A stretch of DNA of 33,436 nt from Candidatus Daviesbacteria bacterium (lineage in GTDB: Bacteria > Patescibacteriota > Microgenomatia > Daviesbacterales > UBA10151), in NCBI GenBank assembly GCA_016176465.1, contig JACOXD010000006.1, positions 135,878-169,313 of the forward strand. Direction: 5' to 3'. Below are positions 15,893 through 33,436 of this stretch, piece after piece. How positions within the stretch are numbered: position 1 is the first letter of the stretch; each line of letters opens with the position of its first letter. The notes below the pieces were generated by a model. The model worked only from the letters and a program-made list of their open reading frames with translations, did not search any database and was not told the origin of the DNA. The translations under genes and the position numbers were made by a program.

Positions 15893-17354
15893 TAATAAAC
15901 TTCTTTTATATATTTTTTTGCTTTTCCTTCTTATACGGTTTATATTTATTTTCAACTTCCCCCCCTTTATTGATGAATCAAATTATATCCAGGCAGGTAA
16001 GATCTCTTTGAGCCAGGAAAGTTTTAGATTCTTTGCAACTGATTATTGGGGAAAAGAAGCTCTGCCAATCTGGTTTTTTGGGTTTGGGGGGAATTTAACT
16101 GAAGATCCAATAATAGGGGCAAGGTTGCTTGTTCTTTTCGTATCTTCAATTAGTTTTTTCTATCTTTTCTTTCTCACTAAAAAAATCTTAAGTATTCAAG
16201 CCGCTTTTGTAGCAACTTTTTTATACGCAATTTGCCCAGGGTTCATCATTTTCAACTCCCTAGCTCAACAAGACTCTCTCCTTTTGGCCTTAAATATAAT
16301 AATTCTTTATTATTTGTTTGAGTTTAAGGAAAGTTTTAGAGTTAAAGATTCTATAATTATAGGTATTTTAATCTCAACCCTTGTTTGGATTAAAGCTACA
16401 TCAGTAATAATTTTAGCTCTAACAAGCTTCACTTTTGTTTTTTTCTTCTTAACCCACGAAAAATTTAACTTAAGAAAAATTTACCTTTTGATTATCCCCT
16501 TTATAACCTTAATTCTCTCAATAATTATTCTTACAAAAACCACAGATTTATCTTTAATACTTGAGCAAACAAGTAAGTACTCAAGTTTAAAAGATAGCAA
16601 TCTATCTTTAATTTCTTTATGGCTGAAAAATTTTTTGTTTGTAACTTTAACCTTAATGATTTATCTTTCCCCTTTAGTATTTTTCTCTTTCATATTCTCA
16701 CTCAATAAGCTTAAGAAAAGAAATTTTTTTATACTTAGCCTCTGGACTATTGTACCTTTAATTTTCTTTATTCTTGCCTCAAATGAAATTAAGGCAAGGT
16801 ATTTTATTTACTCACTTGGTGCCTTTCTTCCAATTATCAGTTATTCAATCTATAACTTAATAAAACAAAGAAAAAAATACTATATCAGCGCTTTAGGAGT
16901 TTTATTATTTCTTGAGACCATTCTTCTGATCTTTAATCCTTATCTTTTTTTCTCTATATTTCCCAAAAATAGTCTAGTTGAAGCTGAAAGGGATTATGCA
17001 TACTCTTGGCCCTCAGGATATGGTGTAAAGGAAGCTTTAAATTATTTCAAGGATATTCGTCCTGATAAACCGGTATTTCTCATTCTGCACGATCATCCTT
17101 CAAACCTACCCTCCTCTTATATTATGTCTTACTATTTCAACAGAGAATTTGAGAATACTAAACTTATCATTGCCTCCTTTGAAAGTAAAGAAAATGTTGG
17201 TTCGCTAAAAAATAACATTAAAAATGAGAGTGGATATTTTATTTCAAACAGCATATTTGTTCCTAAAGCTTTAAAACCTAATCTAACATTGATAAAAAAG
17301 TTTGAAAAACAAGGTTCAGAGGATTTTACTGGAGTTTACTCACTCAAATTTTGA
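15876..17354 (+). CDS. PMT/ArnT-like GT-C glycosyltransferase (GT39/GT83-type)
   Basis: This 492-residue polytopic protein carries the PMT_2/ArnT hallmark DE motif in the first outside loop: FIDESNYI with Asp33 and Glu34. A second acidic motif, LAQQDSLLLALNI, follows a membrane segment, matching the second conserved acid of the family. About ten helices run to ~365, followed by a soluble tail of ~120 residues. It probably transfers a sugar from polyprenyl phosphate to lipid or protein on the outer face. The start is set by the 17-nt overlap with the previous gene. Its 3' end overlaps the convergent TMTC-like gene by 19 nt, so no terminator fits between them. Confidence 0.8.
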   Translation: MEKLYNNKLLLYIFLLFLLIRFIFIFNFPPFIDESNYIQAGKISLSQESFRFFATDYWGKEALPIWFFGFGGNLTEDPIIGARLLVLFVSSISFFYLFFLTKKILSIQAAFVATFLYAICPGFIIFNSLAQQDSLLLALNIIILYYLFEFKESFRVKDSIIIGILISTLVWIKATSVIILALTSFTFVFFFLTHEKFNLRKIYLLIIPFITLILSIIILTKTTDLSLILEQTSKYSSLKDSNLSLISLWLKNFLFVTLTLMIYLSPLVFFSFIFSLNKLKKRNFFILSLWTIVPLIFFILASNEIKARYFIYSLGAFLPIISYSIYNLIKQRKKYYISALGVLLFLETILLIFNPYLFFSIFPKNSLVEAERDYAYSWPSGYGVKEALNYFKDIRPDKPVFLILHDHPSNLPSSYIMSYYFNREFENTKLIIASFESKENVGSLKNNIKNESGYFISNSIFVPKALKPNLTLIKKFEKQGSEDFTGVYSLKF

Positions 17355-19420
17355 TTAAGGCGCAGTGAACTGATTATCTGATTAAAGGTAGCAATGGCTA
17401 AAGAATCAGCTGGGGAAACGTTAATGATTATAACTTTCTCATCTTTAAAAAGAAAAAATTGCAACTGCTCCCTAGTGCCTAGTGCCCTATCACTTTTCTC
17501 CCAAACTTTTACATAGGCATAATCAAAATTAGAAGTTTGAACTAAACCTTCATTAATAAGTTTTCCATAATCACTTTTCTCAGCTTTTATGAAATCTTCA
17601 GGTTTTTGAAAACTTGGCTTTATATCCTCACTAATTTCAATTTCAAGACCTTGATTTGGATCATTTAAAGTAACTGAATCATCTTTTTTAACTATTTCCC
17701 AATTAAATGGAAAAGAAAATATAAAACCTGAAGGAAGATTATAATCAATAAAGCTAATACCTGATTTAAAAAAAGCTGAGTTTGTTGATTCTATTATCAA
17801 ATCCTTGTTTTTAATTGCATTTTCAGCAGACTTTAAAGTCGGATTTATTTTTAAAGCATTAGAAAAATAGTTCATAGATTTTTCTATTTCTGCGTTTTCC
17901 AGATAAATTTCACCTAGCCCGTAGTGCACTTCAAAAAGGTTAGGTTCGGCTGCCAAGGCCTGGTTAAAATGAGCTATTGCAAGCTCGTCTTGATTTATCT
18001 CCTTATAGAGCCTTGCAGAATGGAAATTAGCTATTACATCAGAGGGAGACTGCTGGGCTAATTTAGCCCACAGGGCTAAAGAGTCCTTCCAATCTCTGTT
18101 CCTTAAAAAAGTCTTTGCGCTGTAAAATATAAGCACAACAACTAAAAAAATAATAATTGAAAAATGAACTATTTGTTTTACATCTTTATTCCATTTGTAG
18201 CTATACAAATATCCAACTAACCAAGCCAGTAAAATTACGTATCCAAAGGAGGCAATATAAATATACCTTTCCTGAAAAATTGTTCCCTGAGGGATAATGT
18301 GAAGCACCGGAAGTATGGATATAAAAAACCATCCTATGGAAAATGTAACAATAGGGTATTTTTTAAAACAATAGACGGCTAAAACTAAAGAAACTGATAT
18401 TAATGCAATTGAAAATAAAATCGCAGGTTCAAAAATAGATTGTTGAATAATGCGTTCTGGGTGAGATAAAGGATGATTCCAGGCGCTAATCCCACCCGGG
18501 AGCGTTGGATTTATTGATAAATTTAAAGGAAAAATAAGCCACTCAAAGTATCTTAAAATAACCTTGAGCATAGTAAGGAAAGTAAAATAGATACTCCCTC
18601 CCAAATACTCTCCCCTAACATTTATTTGCATAACTGCGAATCTGATGAATAAAAAGAAAAATGCTGAAATAAAATAAGGAGCATATTGAGGAATTTTTAA
18701 TTTCCAATTTTTAATTTTTAATTTGTTAAAACAGAAATCATATAAAATTATTAACAAAGGGAGGGTAAGTGTCATTTCTGAGTGATAAAAAGCTAAATTA
18801 GCAAAAATTATAGAAAAGATAAACGGTGTCATCCTGAGCGTATTCCTTGTCATCTTGATGGTTTTTTTTGTCATCCTGAGCGCAAGCGAAGGATCTAGAT
18901 TCTTCGTCTTCGCCTCAGAATGACAAGCATATAAATAAAGTAAAAATGATCCAAAAAAGAAAATATAAGCAATAATGTCAAAATTAGCAGTTAAATAATC
19001 TACAGCTTCAGTATGAACAGGATGGAGACCAAATAAAATTGCAGCAAGCATAGCTAAAAGGCCGTTTCTGAAAATTATTCTGCTAATAAAAAATATGAGT
19101 AAAGTTATACTTAAATGAACAACTAATGCTTGAAGATGATATAAAAAAGCATTTTCTCCACCAAAAAGGCTATAGCTTAATGCGTAAACAATGGCTCTAA
19201 CAGGCCTGTATGCTCCCCAATTCCCTGTAGGAATGGTGTCTCCTGCAATCATTTTAGGGATATTGACAAGATTTTGAGTAAGGGGCCAATTACTGATAAA
19301 AGTTTGGTCTTCAATAACAAACCCGTTTGCTAAGGTATTAGCATAAACCAGGAATGTAGCAATAATTATGATTAAAATTTGGATCTTTAAATCTTTAAGA
19401 TAATTTAAATACTGTTTCAT
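17336..19420 (-). CDS. TMTC-like GT-C O-glycosyltransferase with TPRs and C-terminal module
   Basis: This 694-residue protein matches the TMTC (GT105-like) plan. Helix 1 is followed by NGFVIEDQTFI (Glu37-Asp38, where the family usually has two Asp). Then come YRPVRAIVYAL, LFGLHPVHTEAV, FQERYIYIASFGY and FLRNRDWKD, then about three TPRs (~455-535) and a C-terminal module (~553-694) with LNDPNQGLEIEI, YGKLINEG and YVKVWE. TPRs and module should be extracytoplasmic. Repeat-derived residues occupy cytoplasmic loop A (~166-198), loop B (~232-244) and a turn of the module (~645-650). Its ATG overlaps the upstream stop by 4 nt. Dpm1-made polyprenyl-phosphate sugar is the likely donor. Confidence 0.8.
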   Translation of the reverse strand: MKQYLNYLKDLKIQILIIIIATFLVYANTLANGFVIEDQTFISNWPLTQNLVNIPKMIAGDTIPTGNWGAYRPVRAIVYALSYSLFGGENAFLYHLQALVVHLSITLLIFFISRIIFRNGLLAMLAAILFGLHPVHTEAVDYLTANFDIIAYIFFFGSFLLYLYACHSEAKTKNLDPSLALRMTKKTIKMTRNTLRMTPFIFSIIFANLAFYHSEMTLTLPLLIILYDFCFNKLKIKNWKLKIPQYAPYFISAFFFLFIRFAVMQINVRGEYLGGSIYFTFLTMLKVILRYFEWLIFPLNLSINPTLPGGISAWNHPLSHPERIIQQSIFEPAILFSIALISVSLVLAVYCFKKYPIVTFSIGWFFISILPVLHIIPQGTIFQERYIYIASFGYVILLAWLVGYLYSYKWNKDVKQIVHFSIIIFLVVVLIFYSAKTFLRNRDWKDSLALWAKLAQQSPSDVIANFHSARLYKEINQDELAIAHFNQALAAEPNLFEVHYGLGEIYLENAEIEKSMNYFSNALKINPTLKSAENAIKNKDLIIESTNSAFFKSGISFIDYNLPSGFIFSFPFNWEIVKKDDSVTLNDPNQGLEIEISEDIKPSFQKPEDFIKAEKSDYGKLINEGLVQTSNFDYAYVKVWEKSDRALGTREQLQFFLFKDEKVIIINVSPADSLAIATFNQIISSLRLNQNLSE
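17472..17487. repeat. Tandem 8-mer in the C-terminal module
   Basis: On the coding strand GGCACTAG repeats twice (GGCACTAGGCACTAGG) and encodes part of SDRALGTREQ between KVWE and QLQFFLF. A related sequence with GATAGGCAACAGG sits at the same place in the paralog at 19417-21681, so this is probably one diverging repeat family. Confidence 0.55.
18691..18725 (-). repeat. AT-rich 'KIKNWKLKI' repeat in loop B
   Basis: Tandem AATTTTTAATTTcC-like units encode KLKIKNWKLKI in the loop after the LPLLIILYD helix. The same type of sequence forms the start of the gene at 23161-24741 and is present in intergenic spacers at 24742-24835 and 31568-31679. The product is strongly basic, fitting a cytoplasmic loop. 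Confidence 0.6.
18827..18925 (-). repeat. Family 1 palindromic element with two extra half-arms (loop A)
   Basis: The full element spans 18869-18925 (57 nt). Read on the coding strand it starts TGTCATTCTGAG and ends CTCAGGATGACA, arms that pair with one G-T wobble, with inner arms GAAGAATCT and AGATCCTTC. Two further right-arm copies lie at 18849-18860 and 18827-18838. It is translated as CHSEAKTKNLDPSLALRMT followed by KMTRNTLRMT, in the cytoplasmic loop after helix 4. Confidence 0.9.
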
Positions 19421-21681
19421 GTAATTTTTAGTGAGGTTATTATACTCTCAAATTGAATCATCCTATCTGATGAGGCTGGATATACCACTACCTTAACTAG
19501 TTTAGTATTTTTAAAGAGAAAAAACTCCAATATTTGCTTAGTGCTTTGTGCCTGTTGCCTATCTTCCCAGACTCTAACATATGCTTTATCAAAATTAGGG
19601 ATTAATGCCTCACCTTGATTAATTAATTTCCCATATGAGTGCTTGTCATCCTGAAGCACAGCTGAAGGATCTAGTCTATTTAGATTCTTCTGGTCGACTG
19701 GACCATCAAAAATGACAAATAAATTACTATTTGGAGCTTCCAGAATAATGTGACTTCCTTCCTTCTTAAGACTCCACTTTGGAGGGTAGTTAAAGATTAT
19801 TCCTTCCTTATCTTGGTAAGTTCTCCAACCTGATGTTTTGACCAGGTTTTGACTTTCTCCCCTTTTAACTAATTCCAGTTCTAAATATTCTCCCTTATCG
19901 ATCGCTTTAAACATCATGTTTTTCTTTTTAAGAAAATTACTTTCATTAAAATCTCTTAAGCTATTAAGCATTACCCTTTCCCATAAAATTAATCTATATC
20001 CTTTATTTTTTAGATCAAGTAGGTTCTTAACTGTATCTTCTATAAAAATATTAGCGTGAAATGGGGTATTAAAACCTACTTGGGGAAAGTTGTAGCGGTA
20101 GTTGTAATAACCATCAATACTACTAATTAGAAATACTTTTTCATCCTTTTGATCAAAAAGTTTGGGAGAGCTATCAATTCGAAGATCCAGAGGATGAGTC
20201 TGGATAATTTGTCCTGTTGAGATTTTGTAGCGTACTTGATCAAGCTTATGCAAAAGAAAACGGGTAAAAGAAACTGAGGAAAAAACTATTAATAATGAGG
20301 CAACCAAGTATACTACCTTTTTAGATCGATAATTTTTGGCTAAGTAATTTAAGGAAATAAAAAGCATTAATATAAAAATGCCTGAGATATTTAAAAGGTT
20401 ATGATCAAGTGATGCTCCATAAAAATATAAAAGCTGGACCACCCCCAAACCTAAAAGAAGCAAATAAAGATTCCTTAAAGGATTATCTTTTTTTTCTTTG
20501 CTAACTAGACTTAAATATAGTCCAAAAATGGGCAAAATTACCCAAAATACAGATCTATTGGAGATTGGCTGGAAGTAAAGTCTTAAGTGTTGATAAAGTT
20601 GTGCTTGCTGGGAAAAAAGACTGCCAAATAAAGAAAATCTTAATAAAAAACTTAAAAGAATTGGCAAAAACATGATTGCAGATTTAAGCTGAAATTTTTT
20701 TCTCTCCTTAACCATTATCCAAATCACCATAATCAAATAAACTGCCAAATAAATCGCTCCAAAAAAGTTGTCCAATAAGTAAACCAATGCAAAGCTAAAA
20801 GAGGTAATCAAAGATAATAAACCAAATCTGTAAACTATAATTAAAAGCGGTACCCAAACCTCAAGACGAAGTGGTGTTACCTCAACAATAGCATTAGGAT
20901 CATGCTTGATGACAAAAAATCGGAAAGCTATAAGTGTAACCATGAATAAAAAAAGTAAGAATCTATCTTTAATCAGTTTTGAGGCTAAATAAAAATAAAA
21001 CCCATACCAAACAATAAAAATTGCCCCAAAAATAAGGTGCATTTGGGTTAATTGAAGTTTTAATTTAAGCAACAGTGTAAAAAGAAGGGTTAATGGCATA
21101 CCATATGAGATTTGGAATGAGTTTAGACTCTCACCTTGGATCAGCTTTAATGTTGGAGCAATAATGAAGCTGTAGCTAAAAGGCGCTGCCAAATCCATTG
21201 ATAAAAAAACCAAACCGGCAAAGAGAACCCAAAGTAATACAAATATTAGAGTATTAATAGGTTTAGATTTTTTAAATTTAAAGAAAAGATAACTAATATA
21301 GAGAAGGCTTAAAGTTGCAACAATGAGTATAAAATTTAACCAAGGGTCTCTAGAAAAACTAAATATCTCAGAACGGGTTCTAATGATAATTAAAATTAAA
21401 GGTATTAGTAACATAATTTGGACCAATCTATTGGAAAACCAGGCCATTTTTTTCAGCAGTAAATATACTAACCCCAAATAAATAATCATCCCAAAGAACA
21501 TAAAATAAGCCTCTATCCCCTCTGATGGAGATAAGTGAGATCTAAGCCAAGGGGTTATTTTGTTTTCATCAACCGGAGGATATAGAAAGTGGACCTGATT
21601 ATAAAAAAGCATAAATAGCAGATAAAATATTGTGGTAGCTAGAGAAACAACGGCTAGAACTGGAAGAATTTTAGTCTTCAT
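19417..21681 (-). CDS. GT-C-like polytopic membrane protein with shared C-terminal module
   Basis: This 754-residue protein has about 13-15 membrane helices (to ~490) but no TMTC, PMT or DUF2723 motif that I can recognise. The first outside loop (YPPVDENKITPWLRSHLSPS) is acidic and could hold a catalytic residue. There are no TPRs. After a soluble region of ~110 residues it ends in the same module as the TMTC-like proteins (from GWRTYQDKEGIIFNYPPKWS; YGKLINQGEALIPNFDKAYV; VWE; LEFFLFKNTKLVKVVVYP). Family 1 repeat sequence encodes ~655-679 within that module. It overlaps genes on both sides by 4 nt. A glycosyltransferase role is inferred from company and architecture only. Confidence 0.6.
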   Translation of the reverse strand: MKTKILPVLAVVSLATTIFYLLFMLFYNQVHFLYPPVDENKITPWLRSHLSPSEGIEAYFMFFGMIIYLGLVYLLLKKMAWFSNRLVQIMLLIPLILIIIRTRSEIFSFSRDPWLNFILIVATLSLLYISYLFFKFKKSKPINTLIFVLLWVLFAGLVFLSMDLAAPFSYSFIIAPTLKLIQGESLNSFQISYGMPLTLLFTLLLKLKLQLTQMHLIFGAIFIVWYGFYFYLASKLIKDRFLLFLFMVTLIAFRFFVIKHDPNAIVEVTPLRLEVWVPLLIIVYRFGLLSLITSFSFALVYLLDNFFGAIYLAVYLIMVIWIMVKERKKFQLKSAIMFLPILLSFLLRFSLFGSLFSQQAQLYQHLRLYFQPISNRSVFWVILPIFGLYLSLVSKEKKDNPLRNLYLLLLGLGVVQLLYFYGASLDHNLLNISGIFILMLFISLNYLAKNYRSKKVVYLVASLLIVFSSVSFTRFLLHKLDQVRYKISTGQIIQTHPLDLRIDSSPKLFDQKDEKVFLISSIDGYYNYRYNFPQVGFNTPFHANIFIEDTVKNLLDLKNKGYRLILWERVMLNSLRDFNESNFLKKKNMMFKAIDKGEYLELELVKRGESQNLVKTSGWRTYQDKEGIIFNYPPKWSLKKEGSHIILEAPNSNLFVIFDGPVDQKNLNRLDPSAVLQDDKHSYGKLINQGEALIPNFDKAYVRVWEDRQQAQSTKQILEFFLFKNTKLVKVVVYPASSDRMIQFESIITSLKIT
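19538..19563. repeat. GATAGGCAACAGG-type repeat in the C-terminal module
   Basis: The coding strand carries GATAGGCAACAGG followed by CACAAAGCACTAAG, encoding DRQQAQSTKQ between RVWE and ILEFFLF. The same 13-mer GATAGGCAACAGG occurs inside the unrelated aminotransferase gene at 26520-26532, so this is a dispersed repeat and not ordinary coding sequence. Confidence 0.6.
19644..19717 (-). repeat. Family 1 palindromic element, diverged, in the C-terminal module
   Basis: This 74-nt copy has the left arm TGTCAT, inner AAGAATCT and AGATCCTTC, and right end CTTCAGGATGACA on the coding strand. It is translated as VIFDGPVDQKNLNRLDPS then AVLQDD, an acidic product. The site corresponds to that of the copies at 29951-30027 and 31955-32019. 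Confidence 0.8.
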
Positions 21682-23183
21682 AAATCATCCCTCCAACAAT
21701 CAAGTGATAATGGAACAATTTGGTTTTTATTAAAATCGTAAATTTTAACTTGATGGCAATACAAATTATTCCAGAGGCAGGATCCTGCAACGGCCGGGTA
21801 AATTAGGTTATATCCAAACCTTTGACACTTAGCGGGTTTTCCTTTCTCATCAGCACAAATTAGTGATAAGTCCTCTTTATGAACTTGAGCAATAAAGTTA
21901 TTTAGAGATTTTTGAGGGGTTTTATCAGTATAAAACCAGGCTCCCTCACGATAATTACTTGGTTGCTTCAAGTATTGAAAATTAGCAGGGAGAGCTAATA
22001 GATGATGAACTAAAAGTAAAGACAAAATCCCTATTAATGTAAATTTAAGGTGTTTATTAATCTTTTTTTCAGCTACTAGGTAACAAAAACTAAATACAAA
22101 AAGAATATAAAATATCGCTAAAACGCTTGTTGCTCTCCTTATCCCTCCTATTGTGCCAGTTAAACTGGTAAAGATAATATTGGTAAAAAAATAAATTAAA
22201 AGTAATCCTAAAATTAGGCTCGTGTTTTTCTTTTTTAGGAAAAAATAACCACAAATTAATAAAACAGCTATAACAGGAATTATTGGATAAATTGATGAAA
22301 ACTCTACCTCGGCAAGTTCAAAATAATAACTTGAAGGTAAATAAAATAAATCTTTAAGAGTAGTTAATAAATTATCCCAAATAATACTTAAATCTAAATT
22401 TACTCCCCCATTCCCTCTAAATAATCCGGAGTTATTGCGAGGATCATATAAAAGCATCGACTTATTTTTAACAAATAAGATTCCTAAAATTAAAGGGGTG
22501 AGGAAAGCTATTAAGTTAACTAGCACAAGCCTTAAAATAATTCCTTTTTTGCCTGCCTTAGCTTTTTGTTGTCTATAAATAAATAAGCATAGCTTTTCTA
22601 CGAATAAAAACAAAAGTATTGGCAGATAAGAGAGAAAAGTAGGATATGACATCCAAGCAATCATGGCTATTAGCCAGAGTAAAACTTGCTTAAAGTAGTC
22701 AAATGGCTGATTGTTAAATTTAAGCCTTAATACAAGATATAAACAAATTGGAAAATAAACTAAATCCATCCCAAAATGAATGCTTAGAGAGTTAAAGTAA
22801 AGTAAGGTTGGAGACAAACCAATGATTAAAAGAGGAAACCAGGCTGCCCTCTCCCCCAAATACTTTTTCAAGATCGCTGCCAAACAAAAAAGTGAAATTG
22901 CAATCAAAAATAGCTTATAAATTTTAATAACAGCCAGATTAAACCCAAAAATGTTATAAACAAACATTAACTGGTAATACCAACCAATATTTGTAGTAAT
23001 CCCACTGCAGACATTTCCTTTTTGCAGCCAATAGACATTGCTAACAGATTCAGTCAACTCTTCCTGGCGGATATGGATTAAAGATTGATTGATGTAAATT
23101 AACTGAACCAGGACTAAAAAAATTGGGATCAACCAATATAACTTTTTACTTATATCCCCTTTATTCTTCCTTAGAATTCTCAT
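21678..23183 (-). CDS. PMT-like GT-C membrane protein with cysteine-rich tail
   Basis: This 501-residue protein has about ten membrane helices. The first outside loop contains RQEELTESVSNVYWLQKG (Glu41, Glu42), placed like the DE motif of PMT-type enzymes. FGMDLVYFPICLYLVL resembles the second acidic motif after helix 4. The C-terminal ~70 residues have five cysteines (ICADE, KCQ, SCLW, YCHQ, DCWRDDL), and one more lies in the first loop (NVCSG). All are predicted outside, where they could form disulfides, while neighbouring proteins have few cysteines. The 23-nt overlap with the upstream gene and 4-nt overlap downstream indicate one transcript. Donor and acceptor unknown. Confidence 0.65.
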   Translation of the reverse strand: MRILRKNKGDISKKLYWLIPIFLVLVQLIYINQSLIHIRQEELTESVSNVYWLQKGNVCSGITTNIGWYYQLMFVYNIFGFNLAVIKIYKLFLIAISLFCLAAILKKYLGERAAWFPLLIIGLSPTLLYFNSLSIHFGMDLVYFPICLYLVLRLKFNNQPFDYFKQVLLWLIAMIAWMSYPTFLSYLPILLFLFVEKLCLFIYRQQKAKAGKKGIILRLVLVNLIAFLTPLILGILFVKNKSMLLYDPRNNSGLFRGNGGVNLDLSIIWDNLLTTLKDLFYLPSSYYFELAEVEFSSIYPIIPVIAVLLICGYFFLKKKNTSLILGLLLIYFFTNIIFTSLTGTIGGIRRATSVLAIFYILFVFSFCYLVAEKKINKHLKFTLIGILSLLLVHHLLALPANFQYLKQPSNYREGAWFYTDKTPQKSLNNFIAQVHKEDLSLICADEKGKPAKCQRFGYNLIYPAVAGSCLWNNLYCHQVKIYDFNKNQIVPLSLDCWRDDL

Positions 23184-24741
23184 TTCTGTATAAGCTTTCC
23201 AGCCTTTCTTTCGCCGGCTGATAAGTTGGATTTAATTCAAAAGCTTTCTTATACTCTTCTATTGCCTTTTCTTTAAATCCCAAGGTTGTATAGGTATTTC
23301 CTAAATTAAAATGAGCAGCCCAAAAATTTGGGTTAGCTGAGATAGACTTTAAATAGGCACGCGACGCCTCATTATAGAGACCTTTCTGCGAATATCGAAC
23401 CCCTAAGTTGTAGTGCTGTAAGTAATTATAAGGCGAGGAATCAGAAATACTTTTATTTAAAGCTATATCATCTCTCCAGTCTTTATTTCGGGCATGAACT
23501 TTCCAGACATAAGATAACAACATAGTAGTCAATACTATTAGTAAGAATGTGTTTATCAATTTATTTTTTTTATATCTATTTAGAAAAGTTATAAATAGCC
23601 ATGCAAGCATTAAGCAAAAAGCAAATGAGGCTAGATAGATATACCTTTCTTGCATAATCACTCCTGTTTGGAGAATATTGGCAAAAGGCAGGAAAGTTAA
23701 GAAAAACCAAGTCAGCGAAAATGAGATCAGCGGGAGGCTACGATAAAATCTAAAGACTAAAAAAATCAGGCTAACAATCACCAAAAGATAAAAAAGATTG
23801 TTGACATCAAAGAAAGACTGATTAGCTAGTATTCTATTTAAATCCGCTCTTTCAATATGGGCGTAGATCCCTCCTTCAACTCTAGGCTCAAGAGAGAGGT
23901 TAAGGGGAAAAATTAGCAGGTAGATATATTTTATAAAAGCTTTGATCATAACTAAAAAAGTAAAATAACCATTATCACCCAAAGCACTATTCCTGGTAGT
24001 TATATGAACCAAAAACAATCTGACATAAAGATAAATTAATAAAGGCACAAAATAACCTAAATAAATTAGACTTGTCTTTGAGAGAAATTTTGATAGCTCT
24101 TTTTTTCTGAATAAAAGATCATAGGTAATAATTAAAAAAGGTAAAATTAAAGTTGCTTCATAGGTAAAGAAAGCCAAAGTAGAGAAGAAAATAGAAAAAA
24201 ATAAAAAGATTGTTGATTTTTTAAGAGTGTACTTAAGGTAGAGTAAAAACGATCCCAGCAAAAAAGTGATTCCCATACTATCAAAACTGGCTGTTATAAA
24301 TGTCACAGCTTCAGTGTGAATTGGGTGAAGGGCAAAAAGTAATGCTGTTATAAAGGGTAAAAATCTAAGCTTGGATATATTTTTAACTATTAAATAGAAA
24401 AATAAAGTATTAGCAAGATGAATTAGAATCGATAAGAGATGATAACCAAAAGGGTGTTCTCCAAAAAATTGATAAGCAAAGGCCATAAGAGATGTTCTTA
24501 CTGGTCTATAACCTATGTGGGAAGTGTTTGCAGGTAAACCCTCAGCGGTAAATAATTTAGGGAGATTTCCAAGGTCTTGAAGCATCTCCCATTCTAGAAA
24601 AAAAGTTCTATCATCTATTACAAACTCATTTTGAAAGATGTTAGAGTAAGACAGAAAAGTTAAAAAAGCTATAATTGCTAGTTGGATTTTGGTTTGCTTA
24701 ATTTGTCTAATAATTTTTAATTTTAAATTTTTAATTTTCAT
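23161..24741 (-). CDS. TMTC-like GT-C O-glycosyltransferase with TPRs
   Basis: This 526-residue TMTC-like protein has NEFVIDDRTFF (Asp43, Asp44), YRPVRTSLMAF, LFALHPIHTEAV, MQERYIYLASFAF and HARNKDWRDD. Two to three TPRs (~430-515) follow the last helix. It lacks the C-terminal module and ends RNENSKEE after the TPRs. Loops A and B are short here (KYTLKKS; FRKKELSKFLSK) and free of repeats, so this paralog shows the unfilled state. Its N-terminus is unusual: MKIKNLKLKI comes from an AT-rich repeat that contains the start codon. The next in-frame Met is far inside, so this start is best supported. It overlaps the next gene by 23 nt. Confidence 0.82.
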   Translation of the reverse strand: MKIKNLKLKIIRQIKQTKIQLAIIAFLTFLSYSNIFQNEFVIDDRTFFLEWEMLQDLGNLPKLFTAEGLPANTSHIGYRPVRTSLMAFAYQFFGEHPFGYHLLSILIHLANTLFFYLIVKNISKLRFLPFITALLFALHPIHTEAVTFITASFDSMGITFLLGSFLLYLKYTLKKSTIFLFFSIFFSTLAFFTYEATLILPFLIITYDLLFRKKELSKFLSKTSLIYLGYFVPLLIYLYVRLFLVHITTRNSALGDNGYFTFLVMIKAFIKYIYLLIFPLNLSLEPRVEGGIYAHIERADLNRILANQSFFDVNNLFYLLVIVSLIFLVFRFYRSLPLISFSLTWFFLTFLPFANILQTGVIMQERYIYLASFAFCLMLAWLFITFLNRYKKNKLINTFLLIVLTTMLLSYVWKVHARNKDWRDDIALNKSISDSSPYNYLQHYNLGVRYSQKGLYNEASRAYLKSISANPNFWAAHFNLGNTYTTLGFKEKAIEEYKKAFELNPTYQPAKERLESLYRNENSKEE

Positions 24742-26218: not shown

Positions 26219-26284
26219 TGTCATTCTGAACGAAGTGAAGAATCTAACCAATTTAGAGATCCTTCGCTAGCGCTCAGGATGACA
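26219..26284 (+). repeat. Family 1 palindromic element supplying a stop codon
   Basis: This 66-nt copy runs from TGTCATTCTGAA (26219) to CTCAGGATGACA (26284), with inner GAAGAATCT and AGATCCTTC. It is the only copy in the opposite orientation relative to the minus-strand genes. Its right arm overlaps the 3' end of the aminotransferase gene: the last codons (SLSS) and the TGA at 26274-26276 come from the repeat. The rest fills the spacer before the Dpm1-like gene. A hairpin could form there, but there is no T-tract typical of a terminator. Confidence 0.88.
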
Positions 26285-27404
26285 AACTATATATTGATTC
26301 CTTAAGTGCTTTTACTACTTCATTAATTTGTTTTTCAGTTATAGCTAAACCTGAGGGAATATAAAAGCCCCTTTTGGATAAATCTAAGCTCATGGGATAT
26401 TTTTCTCCTTTAAAAAGACCTAATTTTAGAAGTGCTGGCTGTAAATGTAATGGCACAAAAAACTCCCTGGTATCAACTCCTTTTTGCTTTAGAATCTGTA
26501 GCAATTTATCTCTCTGCAACCTGTTGCCTATCGCCTGTAATCTCACAGCGTACATCCACCAGACAGATTTTGTCCCAGGTTGTTCAAATGGCAACTCTAA
26601 TTCCTCTATCGTGCTTAATCTTTGCTCATAAAGCTTCGCCATCCATCTTTTTTTAGCCAGGTATTTTTCTGCCTCCTCCAACTGCCCTAAACCTAAGGCA
26701 GCTTGCAGATTTGACATCCGGTAGCTAAAGCCAATCTCTTTATGGAAGAACCGCTTCTTAGGATCATGAGCTAAGTCCCTTAAACTTTTAACTTTTTGAT
26801 AAATCTTTTCATCATTGGTGGTAACCATTCCACCTTCCCCGCTTGTTACAATCTTATTTCCATAAAAACTAAAACAGCCCACATCTCCTATACTGCCCAC
26901 TTTTTTCCAACCTGCATTAATCTTAACTTCTGCTCCATGAGCCTCTGCAGCATCTTCTATTACTGCTAACTTATGTTTTCTAGCTATTTTTAAAATAGGA
27001 TTCATCTCTGCAGGCTGACCATACAGATGAACTACCATAATAGCTTTAGTGTTCTTAGTAATTTTCTCTTCGATTTTATCTGGATCAATATTTCCTGTAC
27101 TAGCCTCAACATCTACTAATACAGGTGTAGCTCCCATATAAACAACTGCTAAGGCAGTTGAAATAAGAGTTAGATCTGGAACAATCACCTCATCCCCTAT
27201 TTTAACTCCCAAAGCAGCTACAGCCAGATGTAGCGCTGCTGTACCATTTGAGGTAGTTAGTGCATAATTGGTACCTATAAAATTAGCGAATCCTTTCTCA
27301 AATTCTTCTATATATTTACCGCTTGCTACCCAACCAGATTCTAGACAGTCCAAAACATACTTTTTTGAAGCTTTAGAAATTAATGGCTCATTTACAGGAA
27401 TCAT
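26274..27404 (-). CDS. DegT/DnrJ/EryC1/StrS-family PLP aminotransferase
   Basis: This 376-residue enzyme should aminate a keto sugar on a nucleotide carrier using PLP. Seen motifs are TSNGTAALHLAV (~51-62), VIEDAAEAHGAE with Asp151 pairing to the PLP nitrogen, and SFYGNKIVTSGEGGM with the PLP lysine Lys184. FFVPLHLQP and LSKRGFYIPSG match the C-terminal part of the family. An insertion RLQAIGNRLQR (~285-296) sits in a predicted turn and is encoded partly by the repeat GATAGGCAACAGG. The last four residues and the stop come from a palindromic element. It lies 2 nt after the cupin gene, so the two are probably co-translated. Confidence 0.93.
   Translation of the reverse strand: MIPVNEPLISKASKKYVLDCLESGWVASGKYIEEFEKGFANFIGTNYALTTSNGTAALHLAVAALGVKIGDEVIVPDLTLISTALAVVYMGATPVLVDVEASTGNIDPDKIEEKITKNTKAIMVVHLYGQPAEMNPILKIARKHKLAVIEDAAEAHGAEVKINAGWKKVGSIGDVGCFSFYGNKIVTSGEGGMVTTNDEKIYQKVKSLRDLAHDPKKRFFHKEIGFSYRMSNLQAALGLGQLEEAEKYLAKKRWMAKLYEQRLSTIEELELPFEQPGTKSVWWMYAVRLQAIGNRLQRDKLLQILKQKGVDTREFFVPLHLQPALLKLGLFKGEKYPMSLDLSKRGFYIPSGLAITEKQINEVVKALKESIYSLSS
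26520..26532. repeat. GATAGGCAACAGG repeat within the aminotransferase
   Basis: The coding strand has GATAGGCAACAGG inside the stretch encoding QAIGNRLQ, a short extension of a turn in the aminotransferase. The identical 13-mer occurs at 19551-19563 in an unrelated membrane protein gene, read in a different frame. Confidence 0.6.
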
Positions 27405-27871: not shown

Positions 27872-29578
27872 TCATTTTTTGGGTAATGAATCAAGTTCTT
27901 GCTGCGCAACAAAAAGAAGCTGAATAGCTTCCTGGTTGCCTGGATAAATAGCAAGTATCTTTTCAAACTCTCTCTTTGCTTCAGGAAATTTTTCCTGCTT
28001 TAAATAAATTTTGCCAATCTCCCTATAAGCTTCCCAAAAATAAGGATCTTTGCTTAAAAGTTCATTATAGAGTTTTAGCGCTGTATTTTTATCCCCTGCT
28101 AAATCATAAACTTGCGCTAAAGAGGCAAAAGCAACGGAAAAGTTTGGGTTAATTTGATAAGATTTTTGATAGTTTTTAACTGCTAATTCTAAATTTCCTT
28201 TTTCTCTATAAGCATTTCCTAGCTGAAAGTAAGCATATGCGTTATGTTCTGGGTAAACCTTTGCATCTTTAGCCCAGATTGTGAGGTTATCTTTCCAATC
28301 TTTGTTTCTGACAAAAGTAAAGAAGCTAAAGATTAAAGAAATAATTAAAACTATAATTAAAACTTTCTCCTTAAGGTATTTAAAGCCAAGCCAAACTAGT
28401 AAAAATATAATCCCAAAGGAAGGAAGATACAAAAACTTCTCATTCATTAAAGACCCTTGAGGAACTATTCCTAATACTGGCAACAAACTAATAAAAAATA
28501 CTCCCAGACCAAATGCGATAAAGGGTAATTTCTTAAAGGATTTAAATGCTAAGATAAATAATCCTATATATATCAAAATATAAACTAGTATTTCAAAATT
28601 TAAAATATTTAATTGTTTAAAAGGTTCTTGATTATATCCCCGGTAGATAAAAGCTTCGGCGTTATTGATAAGGATATGATTGTTAACTTGATTTATGGGC
28701 AAAATTATTAATTTTAAGTACTCAAAAAAGACATCAAACATGGCTAAAAAAGTTATATACAAACTATCCCCGGGATATGGTGCCCTTCCCTTTATCCCAG
28801 TTACTAATAAACGAACTAAAAAGTAAAAAAATAATCCCAAAAAATAAGGTAAATAGACTAAAGATCTTTTAAGTACCATCCTAAGAGTACTCTTTGTCAT
28901 CCTGAGCGCCAGCGAAGGATCTAATCTAGGGATTCTTCGGCTTTGCCTCAGAATGACACTATAAAGCACAATCAATAAAGGTAGTGTTAAAGTCATTTCA
29001 TAAGTAAAAAAAGCCAGTAGGGCAAAAATTATAGATCCCAAATAGAGTGTCATCCTGAGCGTAGCGAAGGATCTATTGAGATTCTTCGGCTTTGCCTCAG
29101 AATGACATAGGAGATATAGATAAAATGATACAAGCATATAGACTAAGCCTGTTGCCTCCATGCTAGCTGAAATATAAGTAATAGTTTCTGTGTGAATTGG
29201 GTGAGATGCAAAAATTAACGCTGTCCCGAAACCAATTAAGTTGTTTTTGGAAATTTTTGTAGCGATTAAATAGATTAGGATACTGGCAGATAGGTGAACG
29301 AATAATCCATATAAGTGAAACCAAAAGGGAGAGGAACCAAAAAATAGATGAACTAGGACATAAATTAAACCCCTAATTGGTCGGTAAACCCCTTCATGTC
29401 CTAAAGGTAGCTCTCCTTTAAAGATATTCCAAAAATCGCTCAAATTTTTGCCTTGGGCCCAATTAAGGAAAATAGAATCATCTATCACAAACTCATTTTG
29501 AAAAATATTAATATAAGGAATAAGCGCAAAAAGCAAGATTATTATTATTTGAAATTTTGTTTTATTTAAATACTTCAT
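27872..29578 (-). CDS. TMTC-like GT-C O-glycosyltransferase with TPRs
   Basis: This 568-residue paralog has NEFVIDDSIFLNW (Asp33, Asp34), YRPIRGLIYVL, IFASHPIHTETI, MNEKFLYLPSFGI and FVRNKDWKDN. Three to four TPRs (~425-560) follow the final helix; it ends QQELDSLPKK without the C-terminal module. Loop A (~158-177, CHSEAKPKNLNRSFATLRMT) and loop B (~207-235, VILRQSRRIPRLDPS then LALRMT) are both made of family 1 palindromic repeats, entered in different reading frames. Without them the loops would match the short ones of the paralog at 23161-24741. It sits 54 nt downstream of the cupin gene. Confidence 0.82.
   Translation of the reverse strand: MKYLNKTKFQIIIILLFALIPYINIFQNEFVIDDSIFLNWAQGKNLSDFWNIFKGELPLGHEGVYRPIRGLIYVLVHLFFGSSPFWFHLYGLFVHLSASILIYLIATKISKNNLIGFGTALIFASHPIHTETITYISASMEATGLVYMLVSFYLYLLCHSEAKPKNLNRSFATLRMTLYLGSIIFALLAFFTYEMTLTLPLLIVLYSVILRQSRRIPRLDPSLALRMTKSTLRMVLKRSLVYLPYFLGLFFYFLVRLLVTGIKGRAPYPGDSLYITFLAMFDVFFEYLKLIILPINQVNNHILINNAEAFIYRGYNQEPFKQLNILNFEILVYILIYIGLFILAFKSFKKLPFIAFGLGVFFISLLPVLGIVPQGSLMNEKFLYLPSFGIIFLLVWLGFKYLKEKVLIIVLIISLIFSFFTFVRNKDWKDNLTIWAKDAKVYPEHNAYAYFQLGNAYREKGNLELAVKNYQKSYQINPNFSVAFASLAQVYDLAGDKNTALKLYNELLSKDPYFWEAYREIGKIYLKQEKFPEAKREFEKILAIYPGNQEAIQLLFVAQQELDSLPKK
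28874..28958 (-). repeat. Family 1 palindromic element plus a half-arm (loop B)
   Basis: The full copy is 28895-28958 (64 nt); a further right-arm fragment lies at 28874-28887. On the coding strand it reads TGTCATTCTGAG to CTCAGGATGACA and is translated VILRQSRRIPRLDPS then LALRMTKSTLRMV. The product carries about five net positive charges and sits in a predicted cytoplasmic loop. Confidence 0.9.
29048..29107 (-). repeat. Family 1 palindromic element (loop A)
   Basis: This 60-nt copy on the coding strand reads TGTCATTCTGAG to CTCAGGATGACA with inner GAAGAATCT and AGATCCTTC. It is translated CHSEAKPKNLNRS then FATLRMT. It occupies the same protein position as the element at 18869-18925 in the paralog. 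Confidence 0.92.
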
Positions 29579-29587
29579 AATCTAGTG

Positions 29588-29700
29588 TACTTCTCCACTT
29601 TGGTCTAAAAATACTTGTGCTGAGAAGAGCCAAAGTATTATTGTTCGAGTGAAATCGAGAACTACCATATTTTTGAGTTTTGACATTTGACATTTGAGTT
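29588..29700. repeat. Family 2 element and TTTGACA tandem in the intergenic spacer
   Basis: The 121-nt spacer between two TMTC-like genes holds a copy of the TAGTTCTCgA...TCGAGAACTA family (about 29588-29665), followed by TTTTGACATTTGACATTTGAG-type tandem units reaching the downstream stop codon region. The same order, family 2 followed by a short T-rich tandem, occurs within the coding region at 33128-33225. No clear promoter is seen for the gene starting at 29578. Confidence 0.65.
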
Positions 29701-31565
29701 TACTCTATCTTTATTGATCCTAATATCCCATCTACTTCTCCCATAAGCTCAGGTATAGCTGGGTTTACTAATACCTTAATAACTTTATTATCTTTAAATA
29801 AAAAAAACTGCAAGATTTGCCCTTGCACTTGTCCTGTACCGTCTGGTACGGGATCCCATACCTTTACATAAGCGCTATCCCACCCTGGTATAAGTGCCTG
29901 ACCTTGATTAACTAAGTTTCCATGAGTTTCCTTGTCATCCTGAGAGTCTTTGTCATCTTGAGCGTAGAGAAAGATCTCTAGATTAGTCTTGAGATTCTTC
30001 TCCGGCGAAGCCGGATCAAGAATGACATTAGAAATGGTGAGACTAAGTTTCTGATTTGGATCCTTTAAAATAACTCTGTCCTCAGACTCCTCTACTTTCC
30101 AACTCTTTGGGTATAAAAACTCAATCCCATTTTTAGACCTAAAAAGTATGGGAAAATTAGTTAATTTTTGTTTATAGACTAAATTGCTTGGATCAAATTT
30201 AACCGCCATTTCATATTCTTTTTTGGATTCTTCCAATAATCCATGACTTAAATAAAGTTCTCCCCTTTGGAAATATGCTCTCGCATAGCTTGGATCTAAC
30301 CTAATCATTGCAGAATATGAGGTAATATTATCCTTCCAATCCATATTTCTATTAAAAACCACCCAAAAACAAATAATTCCTAATATCCCCAATACTCCTA
30401 ACCCCCACTTCCAACTCCGAGTTGTCAAGCTAAGTCTTAAGGTTTCAGTAATAATTAAAGCCACTCCTACGCTTGCAAAGAACAAATATCTCTCAGAGAA
30501 TAAAAACTCACCTATTTTATTTATAAAAACCAAAGCAGGCAGAATTGATAAATTAATCATTAATAGTCCCAGCACAAGCACCCTAAATCCTTTCTTCCAG
30601 AACCAAACTATCAAACTTAAATTTATAATTGCTAACAAAATTCCAACGGCAACCCCGGGGGTTGCAGCGTGAATTGGGAGGAATATCTGCTGGAAGCTTA
30701 AAGGCAAAGGGTAAATGAGTTTTAAAATATACTTCCCATAAAAATAAAAGGCATTTAGTATTTGTTCATAGCTTGATAATTCATAATAACCTTCATATTG
30801 ATAAACTACCCTGCCTAAAACAACAACCCTGATTACAAAAAATAACATAACCATAAAAGCTGATGCAAACATAAGCGATACGAGATATGTGATACGTTTC
30901 TTTCTTATCTCGTTTCCCGTATCTCGTATCTCCTGAGATTTGAAGATAAACAAAATAAGTACCAAAGGAACTAAGAATACGGCCGTCTCTTTAGAAAGAA
31001 GTGCTAAAAATAAAAAAACCAAACTAAGCACAAATTGCGCGATTTTTGCACTTTGAGCGAACTTTATGGCAAAAATTAGGGAAAGAATGATAAATATACT
31101 CATCAGGAGCTCAGGAGCGCTGGAGATCCAATTAACTACTTCAGAAATAATTGGGTTTATTAAAAAAATGATCGTGCCTAAAAATGCAAATTTCCATTTC
31201 TTTAGTATGAGCTTAAAGAATAAATAGACCACTAAGCTTAGGATAAAAAGTAATGTTATGTTTAAAAAATGAAACATCCACGGCTGGTCCGAAATCTGGT
31301 AAATAAGAAGGTACGATATATTTTGTAATGGTCTGTAGTAGTAACCTCTTTCAGAACAGCTACCTATTAAATCCTCACCAATACAGCCACTGAATATTTT
31401 TGGTATCTTTTGAATGCTTTTGATATTTTTATTTGTTTCTACTTGCCAAACATCATCATGAACAAATCCATTAGATAAGGTATTGCCATAAAAAATGGCT
31501 ATTAAAAGGGCAAATATTAATATCTGGACTTTTGTTTGTTTTAAGTAGGTAAGATATTTATTCAT
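29700..31565 (-). CDS. TMTC-like membrane protein with one TPR and C-terminal module
   Basis: This 621-residue paralog keeps NGFVHDDVWQV (Asp37, Asp38), YYRPLQNISYLL, FSERYLFFASVGV and FNRNMDWKDN. The HPxHTEAV motif is replaced by NPIISEVV, so it is the most divergent TMTC copy here and may differ in activity. About one TPR (~430-465) precedes the C-terminal module (GIEFLYPKSWKVEE; LKDPNQKLSLTI; YVKVWD; LQFFLFKDNKVIKVLVNP). Repeat-derived stretches encode ~211-230 (loop B), ~380-390 (loop C, TTRSWKWG), ~513-545 (acidic insert) and ~572-577. The spacer upstream is AT-rich repeat. Confidence 0.78.
   Translation of the reverse strand: MNKYLTYLKQTKVQILIFALLIAIFYGNTLSNGFVHDDVWQVETNKNIKSIQKIPKIFSGCIGEDLIGSCSERGYYYRPLQNISYLLIYQISDQPWMFHFLNITLLFILSLVVYLFFKLILKKWKFAFLGTIIFLINPIISEVVNWISSAPELLMSIFIILSLIFAIKFAQSAKIAQFVLSLVFLFLALLSKETAVFLVPLVLILFIFKSQEIRDTGNEIRKKRITYLVSLMFASAFMVMLFFVIRVVVLGRVVYQYEGYYELSSYEQILNAFYFYGKYILKLIYPLPLSFQQIFLPIHAATPGVAVGILLAIINLSLIVWFWKKGFRVLVLGLLMINLSILPALVFINKIGEFLFSERYLFFASVGVALIITETLRLSLTTRSWKWGLGVLGILGIICFWVVFNRNMDWKDNITSYSAMIRLDPSYARAYFQRGELYLSHGLLEESKKEYEMAVKFDPSNLVYKQKLTNFPILFRSKNGIEFLYPKSWKVEESEDRVILKDPNQKLSLTISNVILDPASPEKNLKTNLEIFLYAQDDKDSQDDKETHGNLVNQGQALIPGWDSAYVKVWDPVPDGTGQVQGQILQFFLFKDNKVIKVLVNPAIPELMGEVDGILGSIKIE
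29836..29849. repeat. GTACC/GGTAC inverted repeat in the C-terminal module
   Basis: GTACC-GTCT-GGTAC lies in the stretch encoding DPVPDGTGQVQG, between KVW and QILQFFLF. The other paralogs have different repeat-like sequences at this position. Confidence 0.5.
29933..30027 (-). repeat. Family 1 palindromic element with an extra half-arm, in the C-terminal module
   Basis: The full copy is 29951-30027 (77 nt), with an extra right arm at 29933-29944 and a small internal hairpin TCCGGCGAAGCCGGA at 30001-30015. It is translated VILDPASPEKNLKTN...AQDDKDSQDDKE, with a net charge of about -5. The position matches the insert at 31955-32019. Confidence 0.88.
30412..30424. repeat. CAACTCCGAGTTG palindrome and GGGAGT-like tract (loop C)
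   Basis: A 6-bp-arm palindrome and neighbouring TTGGAAGTGGGGGTTAGGAG units on the coding strand encode TTRSWKWGLGVLG, in the loop before the last helix. The stretch is more G-rich than its surroundings. The paralog at 31680 has a family 1 element in the same loop. Confidence 0.45.
30649..30665. repeat. GC-rich palindrome GCAACCCCGGGGGTTGC
   Basis: This 17-nt near-perfect palindrome encodes part of HAATPGVAV in an outside loop. On the opposite strand it differs by one base from GGAACCCCCGGGGTTGC at 32553-32569. Both stand out against the AT-rich background. Confidence 0.6.
30877..30932. repeat. GATACGAGATA-type inverted repeat (loop B)
   Basis: GATACGAGATATGTGATACG (30877-30896) faces CGTATCTCGTATCTC (about 30918-30932). 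On the coding strand the element contains GAGATACGAGATACGGG and encodes QEIRDTGNEIRKKRITYLV in loop B, where other paralogs have different repeats. It is not repeated elsewhere in the window. Confidence 0.7.
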
Positions 31566-31567
31566 AC

Positions 31568-31679
31568 TTAGAAATTTTCAATTTTTAATTTGCAATTTTC
31601 ATTCAAGATTTAAATTTTTAATTGTTTAAACATTGATATATTAAAAATTCATTGTAAATTGATAATTGTTACTTGAAAA
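31568..31679. repeat. AT-rich repeat tract in the intergenic spacer
   Basis: The 114-nt spacer between two TMTC-like genes consists of AATTTTTAATTTgCAATTTTC and ATTGTAAATTGATAATTG-type units, closely matching the spacer at 24742-24835. No other feature is visible. If the gene starting at 31565 has its own promoter, it must be embedded here. Confidence 0.6.
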
Positions 31680-33436
31680 TTATTCCACCTTTATTGATCC
31701 TAATATCCCATCAAACTCTCCCATTAGCTCAGGAACAACTGGGTTGACTAATACTTGAATAACATTCCCATCTTTAAATAGAAAAAACTGCAAGATTTGT
31801 TTTCCTCTTGATTCCCTTCGGGTCTGAGCCTCAGAGTCGAAGACTTGATCCTTCCGACTTAACTCTCCATTATCTTCCCAAACTCTAACATGAGCATCAT
31901 CCCAGCCAGGTATAAGGGCTTTACCTTCATTAACTAACTTTCCATAAGACTCCTTGTCATCCTGAAGCGCAGCTGAAGGATCCAGATTCTTCTCCGGCGA
32001 AGCCGGATCAAGAATGACACGAGAAAGAGTAACACTCAACTGCTCATTTGGATCCTTTAAAATCTCCTTATCATCTCTAGATTCTATGCTCCAGTGCAGG
32101 GGAAATAAAAGAAAAAAGCCCTGCTTGCTTTTATAATTCACAAGGATCTGATCATTTAAAACTCCTGACTTAGTACTTTCTCTTAAAACTTGGATATTTG
32201 ACAGTGCATTTTTTGCAGCGATGAGATTAGGATGGGTTTTTACCAGTGTGTCATACTCTGCTGTAGCTTTATCAAAATCCATACCTCTTAGATAAAGATT
32301 TGCCAAATTAAACCTAGCTTCCCAAAAATTTGGGGCTTTTTCTAATACCCTTTTGTAGTATCCCTCAGATTTTGCTAAATCATTGCTCTTTCCATACCAA
32401 ATCCCCAAAGTATAATTAGCCATTAAGTTATCAGGGGATTTTGCAACAACATCAGAAAAAAGCGAAATATCATTTTTCCAAATAAAGTTTCTGTTAAAGG
32501 TAAGAATAAAATAAATTAAAATCAACAACCCAAATCCTCCAAACATTAGCTTGGAACCCCCGGGGTTGCGCCTCAGTTTTGTCATCCTGAGGGCAAAGCC
32601 CGAAGGATCTAATCCTGAGATTCTTCGCCTTTGGCTCAGAATGACAAAGAAAAACCATCCTACTAATAAACAATATCCTAACGAGGCAATATAAAGATAC
32701 TTTTCAGCCATTGCTCCTCCATGAGGGATAATATAAGAAACTGGTATAAGTGCTATAAAAAACCACAATATACAAAAAGATACTAAACTATACCTTTTGA
32801 TATATTTGAAAGCAAATATTATGAGACCTAGTAATAGAGCAGCTGATATTAAAACTTCAGAATCAAAAATACTCTGGTTTAAAATTGGCTCAAGTGAGTC
32901 ATAAGGAATCATAGATGAAGGAAAATCCCCTACTAGATTGTGTATTGCTGTTTGGTTAAAAGGAGCAATCAAAAGCAGAATATATCTTGCAAAAACTTTA
33001 ACCATTGTTAGCTGTGTTAAATAAAAGCTATAACCTAGATAATCAGTTCTTGAGACTAAACTAAGCATAGAAGTTCTAATAAAAATAAAAATTAAAACTC
33101 CCAAAAAATAAGGAAGATAGATTAGTGTAGTTCTCCATTTCAGTCGAACCATAAATATTATTCGAGCGAGCGAAGTGAGTCGAGAATTACCATAATTTTG
33201 ATTTTTGATTTTTGATTTTTGATTTAAAACCATGTCATATAAAACAATCAACAATGGTAAGGTTAGTGTCATTTCATAAGTAAAAAAAGCAAGAAAAGCA
33301 AAGAAAATAGAAGCTATATAGAGAAGTAGTTCTCGACTACGCTCGAACAATAATATTCTTCGAGTGAGGGAAGTGAATCGAGAAGTTCCTAATACATAAA
33401 GATAAAAGCTCAGGAAAAAAAACAAACTCCCCCATG
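31680..33436 (-). CDS. TMTC-like GT-C protein with TPRs and C-terminal module, 5' end missing
   Basis: The open frame continues to the right edge (first whole codon at 33434), so helices 1-3 and the DD motif lie outside the window; a start at TTG 33425 would fall mid-helix and is not real. The visible part has FFLSFYLYVLG, FLAFFTYEMTLTLPLLI, MAEKYLYIASLGY, FNRNFIWKND, two to three TPRs, then the C-terminal module (FFLLFPLHWSIE; LKDPNEQLSVTL; VRVWED; LQFFLFKDGNVIQVLVNP). It is the most repeat-loaded gene: family 2 in loops A and B, a TTTTGAT tandem in loop B, family 1 and a GC palindrome in loop C, and two different elements in the module. Confidence 0.8.
   Translation of the reverse strand, partial: WGSLFFFLSFYLYVLGTSRFTSLTRRILLFERSRELLLYIASIFFAFLAFFTYEMTLTLPLLIVLYDMVLNQKSKIKNQNYGNSRLTSLARIIFMVRLKWRTTLIYLPYFLGVLIFIFIRTSMLSLVSRTDYLGYSFYLTQLTMVKVFARYILLLIAPFNQTAIHNLVGDFPSSMIPYDSLEPILNQSIFDSEVLISAALLLGLIIFAFKYIKRYSLVSFCILWFFIALIPVSYIIPHGGAMAEKYLYIASLGYCLLVGWFFFVILSQRRRISGLDPSGFALRMTKLRRNPGGSKLMFGGFGLLILIYFILTFNRNFIWKNDISLFSDVVAKSPDNLMANYTLGIWYGKSNDLAKSEGYYKRVLEKAPNFWEARFNLANLYLRGMDFDKATAEYDTLVKTHPNLIAAKNALSNIQVLRESTKSGVLNDQILVNYKSKQGFFLLFPLHWSIESRDDKEILKDPNEQLSVTLSRVILDPASPEKNLDPSAALQDDKESYGKLVNEGKALIPGWDDAHVRVWEDNGELSRKDQVFDSEAQTRRESRGKQILQFFLFKDGNVIQVLVNPVVPELMGEFDGILGSIKVE
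31816..31842. repeat. Inverted repeat in the C-terminal module
   Basis: CTTCGGGTCTGAG (31816-31828) and CTCAGAGTCGAAG (31830-31842) pair at 11 of 13 positions around a single base. The element encodes most of KDQVFDSEAQTRRES, which extends the turn between RVWED and QILQFFLF by about 15 residues compared with the paralogs. Confidence 0.7.
31955..32019 (-). repeat. Family 1 palindromic element in the C-terminal module
   Basis: This 65-nt copy carries a TGTCATT left end, an internal TCCGGCTTCGCCGGA hairpin, GAAGAATCT and a CTTCAGGATGACA right end on the coding strand. It is translated VILDPASPEKNLDPS then AALQDD, with a net negative charge. Confidence 0.9.
32553..32569. repeat. GC-rich palindrome GGAACCCCCGGGGTTGC
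   Basis: This element lies 10 nt from a family 1 copy and encodes LRRNPGGSK in loop C. It matches 30649-30665 in reverse orientation with one difference. Confidence 0.6.
32580..32646 (-). repeat. Family 1 palindromic element (loop C)
   Basis: This 67-nt copy on the coding strand reads TGTCATTCTGAG to CTCAGGATGACA, with inner GAAGAATCT and AGATCCTTCG. It is translated VILSQRRRISGLDPS then GFALRMTK, basic, in the loop before the last membrane helix. Confidence 0.92.
33128..33225. repeat. Family 2 element plus TTTTGAT tandem (loop B)
   Basis: TAGTTCTCC at 33128 and TCGAGAATTA at 33180-33189 are the outer arms; TCGAA and TTCGA are inner arms. Next to it lie about four TTTTGAT heptamers (33197-33225). 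Together they encode QKSKIKNQNYGNSRLTSLAR and IIFMVRLKWR, strongly basic, in loop B. Confidence 0.75.
33327..33388. repeat. Family 2 element (loop A)
   Basis: Outer arms TTCTCGA/TCGAGAA and inner arms CTCGAA/TTCGAG form a nested inverted repeat. The coding strand gives GTSRFTSLTRRILLFERSRE in loop A, the same site that holds family 1 elements in the paralogs at 17336 and 27872. Confidence 0.78.

Follow-up and report, generated by a model that had tools for sequence, protein, structure and literature searches.

The locus described here raises the question of why the same loops of paralogous membrane proteins carry short repeats of different families. The window, which is the whole stretch of 33,436 nt analysed, lies at the end of contig C5 (135878-169313). 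The genome, of 1.07 Mb and 33% GC, is in 18 contigs, and its closest named relatives in a homolog scan are Candidatus Daviesbacteria. Five TMTC-like proteins are encoded in it, all on the minus strand and named here by their first coordinate (Table 1), each composed of a GT-C-type membrane domain followed by tetratricopeptide repeats (TPRs). The repeats in their loops probably reflect a genome-wide dispersal of several mobile palindrome families together with a purifying selection which spared the cytosolic loops. The genome is called G000 here and that of a relative G015; contig C9 of the former (55,510 nt) reads as N.

The initial annotation had described repeats at shared sites of these paralogs, namely loop A (after the SFxLYL helix), loop B (after LPLLIxLYD) and loop C (before the last helix), an observation which we confirm, with two weak entries. 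Every named repeat is found at its place in equivalent gaps, and the MAFFT alignments, first of the five window paralogs and then of 30 proteins including relatives, agree on this with the AlphaFold2 (AF2) models of 27872 and 29700. Loop A holds family 1 in 17336 and 27872 and family 2 in 31680, and it is empty in 23161 and also in 29700. All the fillings of loop B were located, with none in 23161, but the run encoding KIKN in 17336 has the same length as in its G015 ortholog and was discarded as an insertion. Loop C of 31680 contains family 1 and a GC palindrome as described; the CAACTCCGAGTTG element of 29700 is located as well, but adds no length in comparison to the G015 ortholog.

The two models put the footprints at helix-helix turns, mostly at dips in the predicted local distance difference test (pLDDT), and the filled loops A, B and C are equivalent in the GT-C fold as modelled. 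When compared to random placement, eleven of the twelve footprints fall in cytosolic-side segments making up 6-15% of the transmembrane (TM) domain (p <=8.7e-9, with 8.7e-9 the value at a three-residue margin, for footprints which are partly dependent on one another). In the TMTC cluster the in-gene elements number 10 where 1.2 are expected (p 4e-7, about 8-fold enriched). Assignment of the side comes from charge: loops 0, A, B, 9/10 and C have a net charge of +10 to +20 per 100 residues and the other loops are neutral or negative, in insert-free proteins and outside homologs, so that by the positive-inside rule the filled loops should be cytosolic. Loop 0 is a fourth loop, filled in a relative and overlooked in the initial annotation. 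The conserved DD, HPIHTE and ERYLY motifs are located on the opposite face. In 31 homologs from outside Daviesbacteria, belonging to other phyla, loops 0, A, B and C vary in length (13-22 with a maximum of 37 for loop A, 19-25 with a maximum of 34 for loop C) and TM3-4, TM5-6 and the ERYLY loop are of fixed length (standard deviation 0-0.5). Most loops on the catalytic side have a constant length, and repeats are almost absent from them.

As to the fold itself, Foldseek matches include ArnT, PglB, STT3 and Pmt4, and the GT-C membrane fold followed by TPRs, the latter matched in Pfam, is the layout of the TMTC protein O-mannosyltransferases. The Pfam TMTC domain has no match in the window proteins, which match only TPR and in one case PMT_2, and in a profile search of PDB sequences the TPR matches swamped the result. 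Three of the five proteins have a C-terminal domain, which is PsbP-like in the one modelled (29700).

The window genome contains nine RAYT-like genes, i.e. Y1_Tnp (PF01797) transposase genes of the type associated with repetitive extragenic palindromes (REPs), all above the curated cut-off. A GC-rich k-mer is common to both flanks in seven of the eight tested, compared to 42 of 1071 other genes (3.9%), and the flanking palindromes are also dispersed through the genome. Twelve REP families, R1-R12, were distinguished, with 6-21 copies each, 111 loci in all and a length of about 26-40 nt; both R1 and R12 are present in the window. Palindrome cores with at least five copies number 20 in the genome and two in a Markov genome. 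The REP units share a 12-nt TCAAGCTAAWTC-like tag, by which the GC palindromes (AACCCC, CAACTC and others) belong to a single superfamily associated with RAYTs. At offset 11 the last four bases of the tag complement the hairpin foot in 33 of 100 copies, the control giving a mean of 0.8 and a maximum of 4, and foot and end covary between REP families (CACC/GGTG, AACC/GGTT), a complementarity resembling, by analogy, the pairing of guide and cleavage site in IS200/IS605 elements.

Family 1 (consensus TGTCATYCTGA-hp-AAGRATCT..AGATYCTT-hp-TCAGRATGACA, where hp is a hairpin) is composed of two inverted units in one larger hairpin, has 68 loci of 57-90 nt genome-wide and has covarying stems (121 against 53 in the control); its end motif is present in 23 of the 38 genomes searched, its own counted. 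Family 2 has a similar two-hairpin layout and, with a longer seed, few copies; single-seed nhmmer searches for it and for two heptad-type elements detected no dispersed family. The TTTTGAT, AATTTTT, GATACGA and CTAGTGC runs are heptad-type. The families had been called unrelated, which holds for the heptad runs, a separate class, and less so for the GC palindromes, being one superfamily, and for families 1 and 2 with their common layout. The inner hairpin tips of family 1 appear modular, several tip types occurring in different pairs as if swapped between copies.

While 91.6% of the genome is coding, genes harbour 33 of the 68 family 1 loci (49%) and 40 of the 111 REP loci (36%), a depletion with p values of 4e-20 and 4e-48, respectively. 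As these shares are far below the coding share, most gene insertions have been lost. Selection for tolerated sites, one of the two explanations offered in the initial annotation, is supported both by this depletion and by the filled loops being the length-variable cytosolic loops in other phyla too. The intragenic copies are without stops in the frame of their host. A check with NCBIfam identified ten insert-bearing proteins as DnaX, CysS, a RarA-type ATPase, MurC, PolA, SucC, AtpG (with two inserts), PurH, SecA and PcrA/UvrD, and in CysS, MurC, AtpG, PurH, SucC and DnaX the match extends through the insert. DnaX, SecA, PolA, CysS, MurC and AtpG are among the hosts of family 1, and the CCA-adding enzyme, ArgS, LepA, GatB and others are putative further insert-bearing proteins, named from their sequence.

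Some observations on these elements stand by themselves. The palindrome flanking the RAYT gene G000:C13:86027-86653 (AGGGTCCGACCCT) also occurs twice within the reading frame of that gene, and this palindrome family is inside genes in 9 of 11 cases. The REP families differ strongly in compatibility with coding, R3 (10 of 10) and R9 (8 of 8) being all intergenic and R4 mostly intragenic. DNA polymerase I (G000:C6:35938-38208) contains, in addition to family 1, a second repeat-like stretch (TPRNDVIASEAKQSSS).

In the explanation proposed here, several short mobile palindrome families would insert across the genome and selection would keep the copies doing little harm. The GC-rich palindromes would be the REPs of RAYT (Y1 HUH) transposases, and families 1 and 2 are REPIN-like two-hairpin elements (REPIN, REP doublet forming a hairpin). 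An insertion keeping the frame would be translated, adding up to 20-30 residues, and the TMTC-like GT-C proteins could absorb these in loops 0, A, B and C on the cytosolic side, which lie apart from the active-site face; for this reason independent families would pile up there. Heptad runs may occur in the same loops because of the same tolerance, their origin being probably replication slippage.

A common mechanism targeting existing repeats or hairpins, by which one insert would draw further ones into its loop, was the other explanation offered initially, and the neighbourhood of different families in 31680 (family 1 and R1 at 10 nt from each other in loop C, TTTTGAT and family 2 in loop B) together with the fact that REPs are known targets of some insertion sequences (PMC1525189) would fit it. 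Genome-wide, however, pairs of different families not more than 60 nt apart number 8 against a null mean of 7.3, a value reached in 433 of 1000 permutations, and this chance level argues against repeat-targeted insertion, as do the empty loops of paralog 23161 and of several orthologs; we regard it as improbable, and the initial interpretation as a whole as partly supported. Still harder to credit is that the inserts are themselves beneficial, as basic residues in cytosolic loops or as mRNA hairpins. The inserted peptides are often basic, matching the positive-inside side, and the enrichment in the cluster would agree with a benefit, but the peptides are different and unrelated, orthologs are empty and the same elements occur in many soluble enzymes.

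Inheritance or copying among paralogs by duplication or gene conversion, which would reduce the shared positions to few events, is an unlikely account of the window as a whole. The C-terminal family 1 copies of 29700 and 31680 do share 36 identical nt, and within 27872 each of the two family 1 copies has its best match in the other; yet the loops in the window genome are filled by different families, the copies in loop A of 17336 and of 27872 are not each other's nearest relatives, and loop A is empty in the ortholog of 17336 (L096:5294-7381). In the other G015 orthologs there is a CACCCC doublet in loop A where 27872 has family 1 (L095:6815-9073), and AT-rich runs where 31680 has family 2 and family 1, so that different families occupy one loop also between orthologs.

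Within G015 itself the balance is different, and here begin the points which weigh against dispersal and selection as the full explanation. Its 104-nt GTTGC..GCAAC element, present in three copies, and its CACCCC doublet, present in five, are confined to the TMTC cluster (stretches L094-L096, G015:C6:30000-75000), and the linkers of the doublet are loop-specific, so that independent events for all G015 inserts were ruled out, and descent or exchange among paralogs is likelier there than repeated landing. Since two G015 element types are found only in these genes, with loop-specific linkers, the TMTC-like loops might even be preferred sites of insertion or exchange, by targeted insertion or by paralog conversion at inserts, through which this family of membrane glycosyltransferases would gain new loop sequence; we give this little probability. 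In the window, the R1 copy of 29700, overlooked in the initial annotation, is in a catalytic-side loop, and the KIKN run and CAACTCCGAGTTG, both among the named fillings, are without net length. Neither family 1 nor family 2 showed a link to any RAYT in the window genome or at the roughly 30 RAYT loci examined in relatives. The open reading frames behind the in-gene counts were called with a home-made caller. No transposition was observed, and a role of RAYTs in moving the REPs is what we infer from their association.

Known precedents for the window inserts are the intragenic REPs and the protein-coding palindromes of Rickettsia. In RAYT/REPIN systems a Y1_Tnp gene is flanked by palindromes which are also dispersed, paired palindromes forming doublets (PMC2817692, PMC3116915). 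The gene, the palindrome on both flanks and the dispersal are all found here, whereas more than 100 copies per genome contrast with at most 21 per family, the TCAAGCTAAWTC-type tag takes the place of the GTAG/CGTC head, and location inside genes is frequent; family 1 has the two-inverted-unit hairpin of REPINs but not their RAYT link. Intragenic REPs of the GTAG/CGTC superfamilies occur as monomers and dimers in frame within genes, many of these for replication and repair, with different REPs at about the same recB site in two Xanthomonas species; many of the host species carry RAYTs, and loops and linkers were proposed as tolerant sites (PMC3733652, 2013). The present elements differ from these in their tag, in low copy number per family and in the share of loci in genes given above, and loop equivalence was tested here on structure models. 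The Rickettsia palindromic elements (RPEs) are in frame in conserved proteins, as well as intergenic, with function tolerated (PMC2229807). In-frame insertion in conserved protein genes is likewise found here (33 family 1 and 40 REP copies in called reading frames), but RPEs are described as 105-146 bp long, in comparison to 26-90 nt in several families here, and the GC-rich families adjoin RAYT genes; RPEs are set beside them by description. A literature search, most subscription papers being outside its coverage, turned up no patescibacterial precedent.

Further repeats of the window are listed in Table 1. Two more shared repeat sites, missed in the initial annotation, lie in the PsbP-like C-terminal domain (17465-17500, 19500-19720, 29950-30027 and 31760-32019), and C-terminal-domain sites are also present in the non-TMTC neighbour 19417. 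A repeat coding for QVFDSE..QTRR is found in both the 31680 product (window about 31800-31860) and DnaX (G000:C12:14457-16124). An Rfam scan of the window and PADLOC on three proteins each gave no match.

Table 1. TMTC-like genes of the window and repeats in and around them (F1, family 1; pTM, predicted TM-score of the AF2 model; positions in the window).
Position	Strand	Feature	Remarks
17336..19420	-	TMTC-like (GT-C + TPR) paralog	
23161..24741	-	TMTC-like paralog, loops without inserts	
27872..29578	-	TMTC-like paralog	AF2 pTM 0.92
29700..31565	-	TMTC-like paralog with PsbP-like domain	AF2 pTM 0.83
31680..33434	-	TMTC-like paralog	5' end lost at contig end
18867..18926		F1 REPIN-like doublet, loop A of 17336	read as ACHSEAKTKNLDPSLALRMTK; absent in ortholog L096:5294-7381; best genome match C5:69005
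18692..18729		AT-rich heptad run (AATTTTT)n, loop B of 17336	KIKNWKLKI; no net length vs ortholog
29048..29108		F1 doublet, loop A of 27872	about residues 157-177; AF2 loop 159-168
28893..28958		F1 doublet, loop B of 27872	about residues 207-229; AF2 loop 216-228, pLDDT about 60
30871..30935		GATACGA element, loop B of 29700	about residues 211-232; AF2 loop 213-217
30412..30424		R12 palindrome CAACTCCGAGTTG with tag, loop C of 29700	residues 381-385; AF2 loop 380-384
30651..30663		R1 palindrome AACCCCCGGGGTT (AACCCC) in 29700	end of loop before helix 303-324; predicted catalytic side
33311..33389		family 2 two-hairpin element, loop A of 31680	
33125..33190		family 2 copy, loop B of 31680	
33196..33225		TTTTGAT tandem, loop B of 31680	
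32578..32648		F1 doublet, loop C of 31680	VILSQRRRISGLDPSGFALRMTK
32555..32567		R1 palindrome AACCCCGGGGGTT, loop C of 31680	R1 also flanks RAYT gene C13:103193-103838
17465..17500		CTAGTGC heptad run, C-terminal domain of 17336	DRALGTREQ
19643..19718		F1, C-terminal domain of 19417	RLDPSAVLQDDK
29950..30027		F1, C-terminal PsbP-like domain of 29700	residues 513-539, low pLDDT
31954..32019		F1, C-terminal domain of 31680	same site as in 29700
26219..26285		F1 doublet	3' edge of gene 26274-27404
29633..29666		family 2 fragment	intergenic
11822..11858		R2 palindrome doublet	in frame in TMEM260-like gene 11484-14108

For this uncultured, streamlined lineage the genome may be regarded as an insertion scan of proteins made by nature, with dozens of core enzymes carrying in-frame mobile palindromes, in which the surviving inserts would mark sites tolerating 20-30 extra residues. 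The presence of protein-coding palindromes beside RAYT genes offers a plausible mover for insertions of the Rickettsia type, at least for the GC-rich families.

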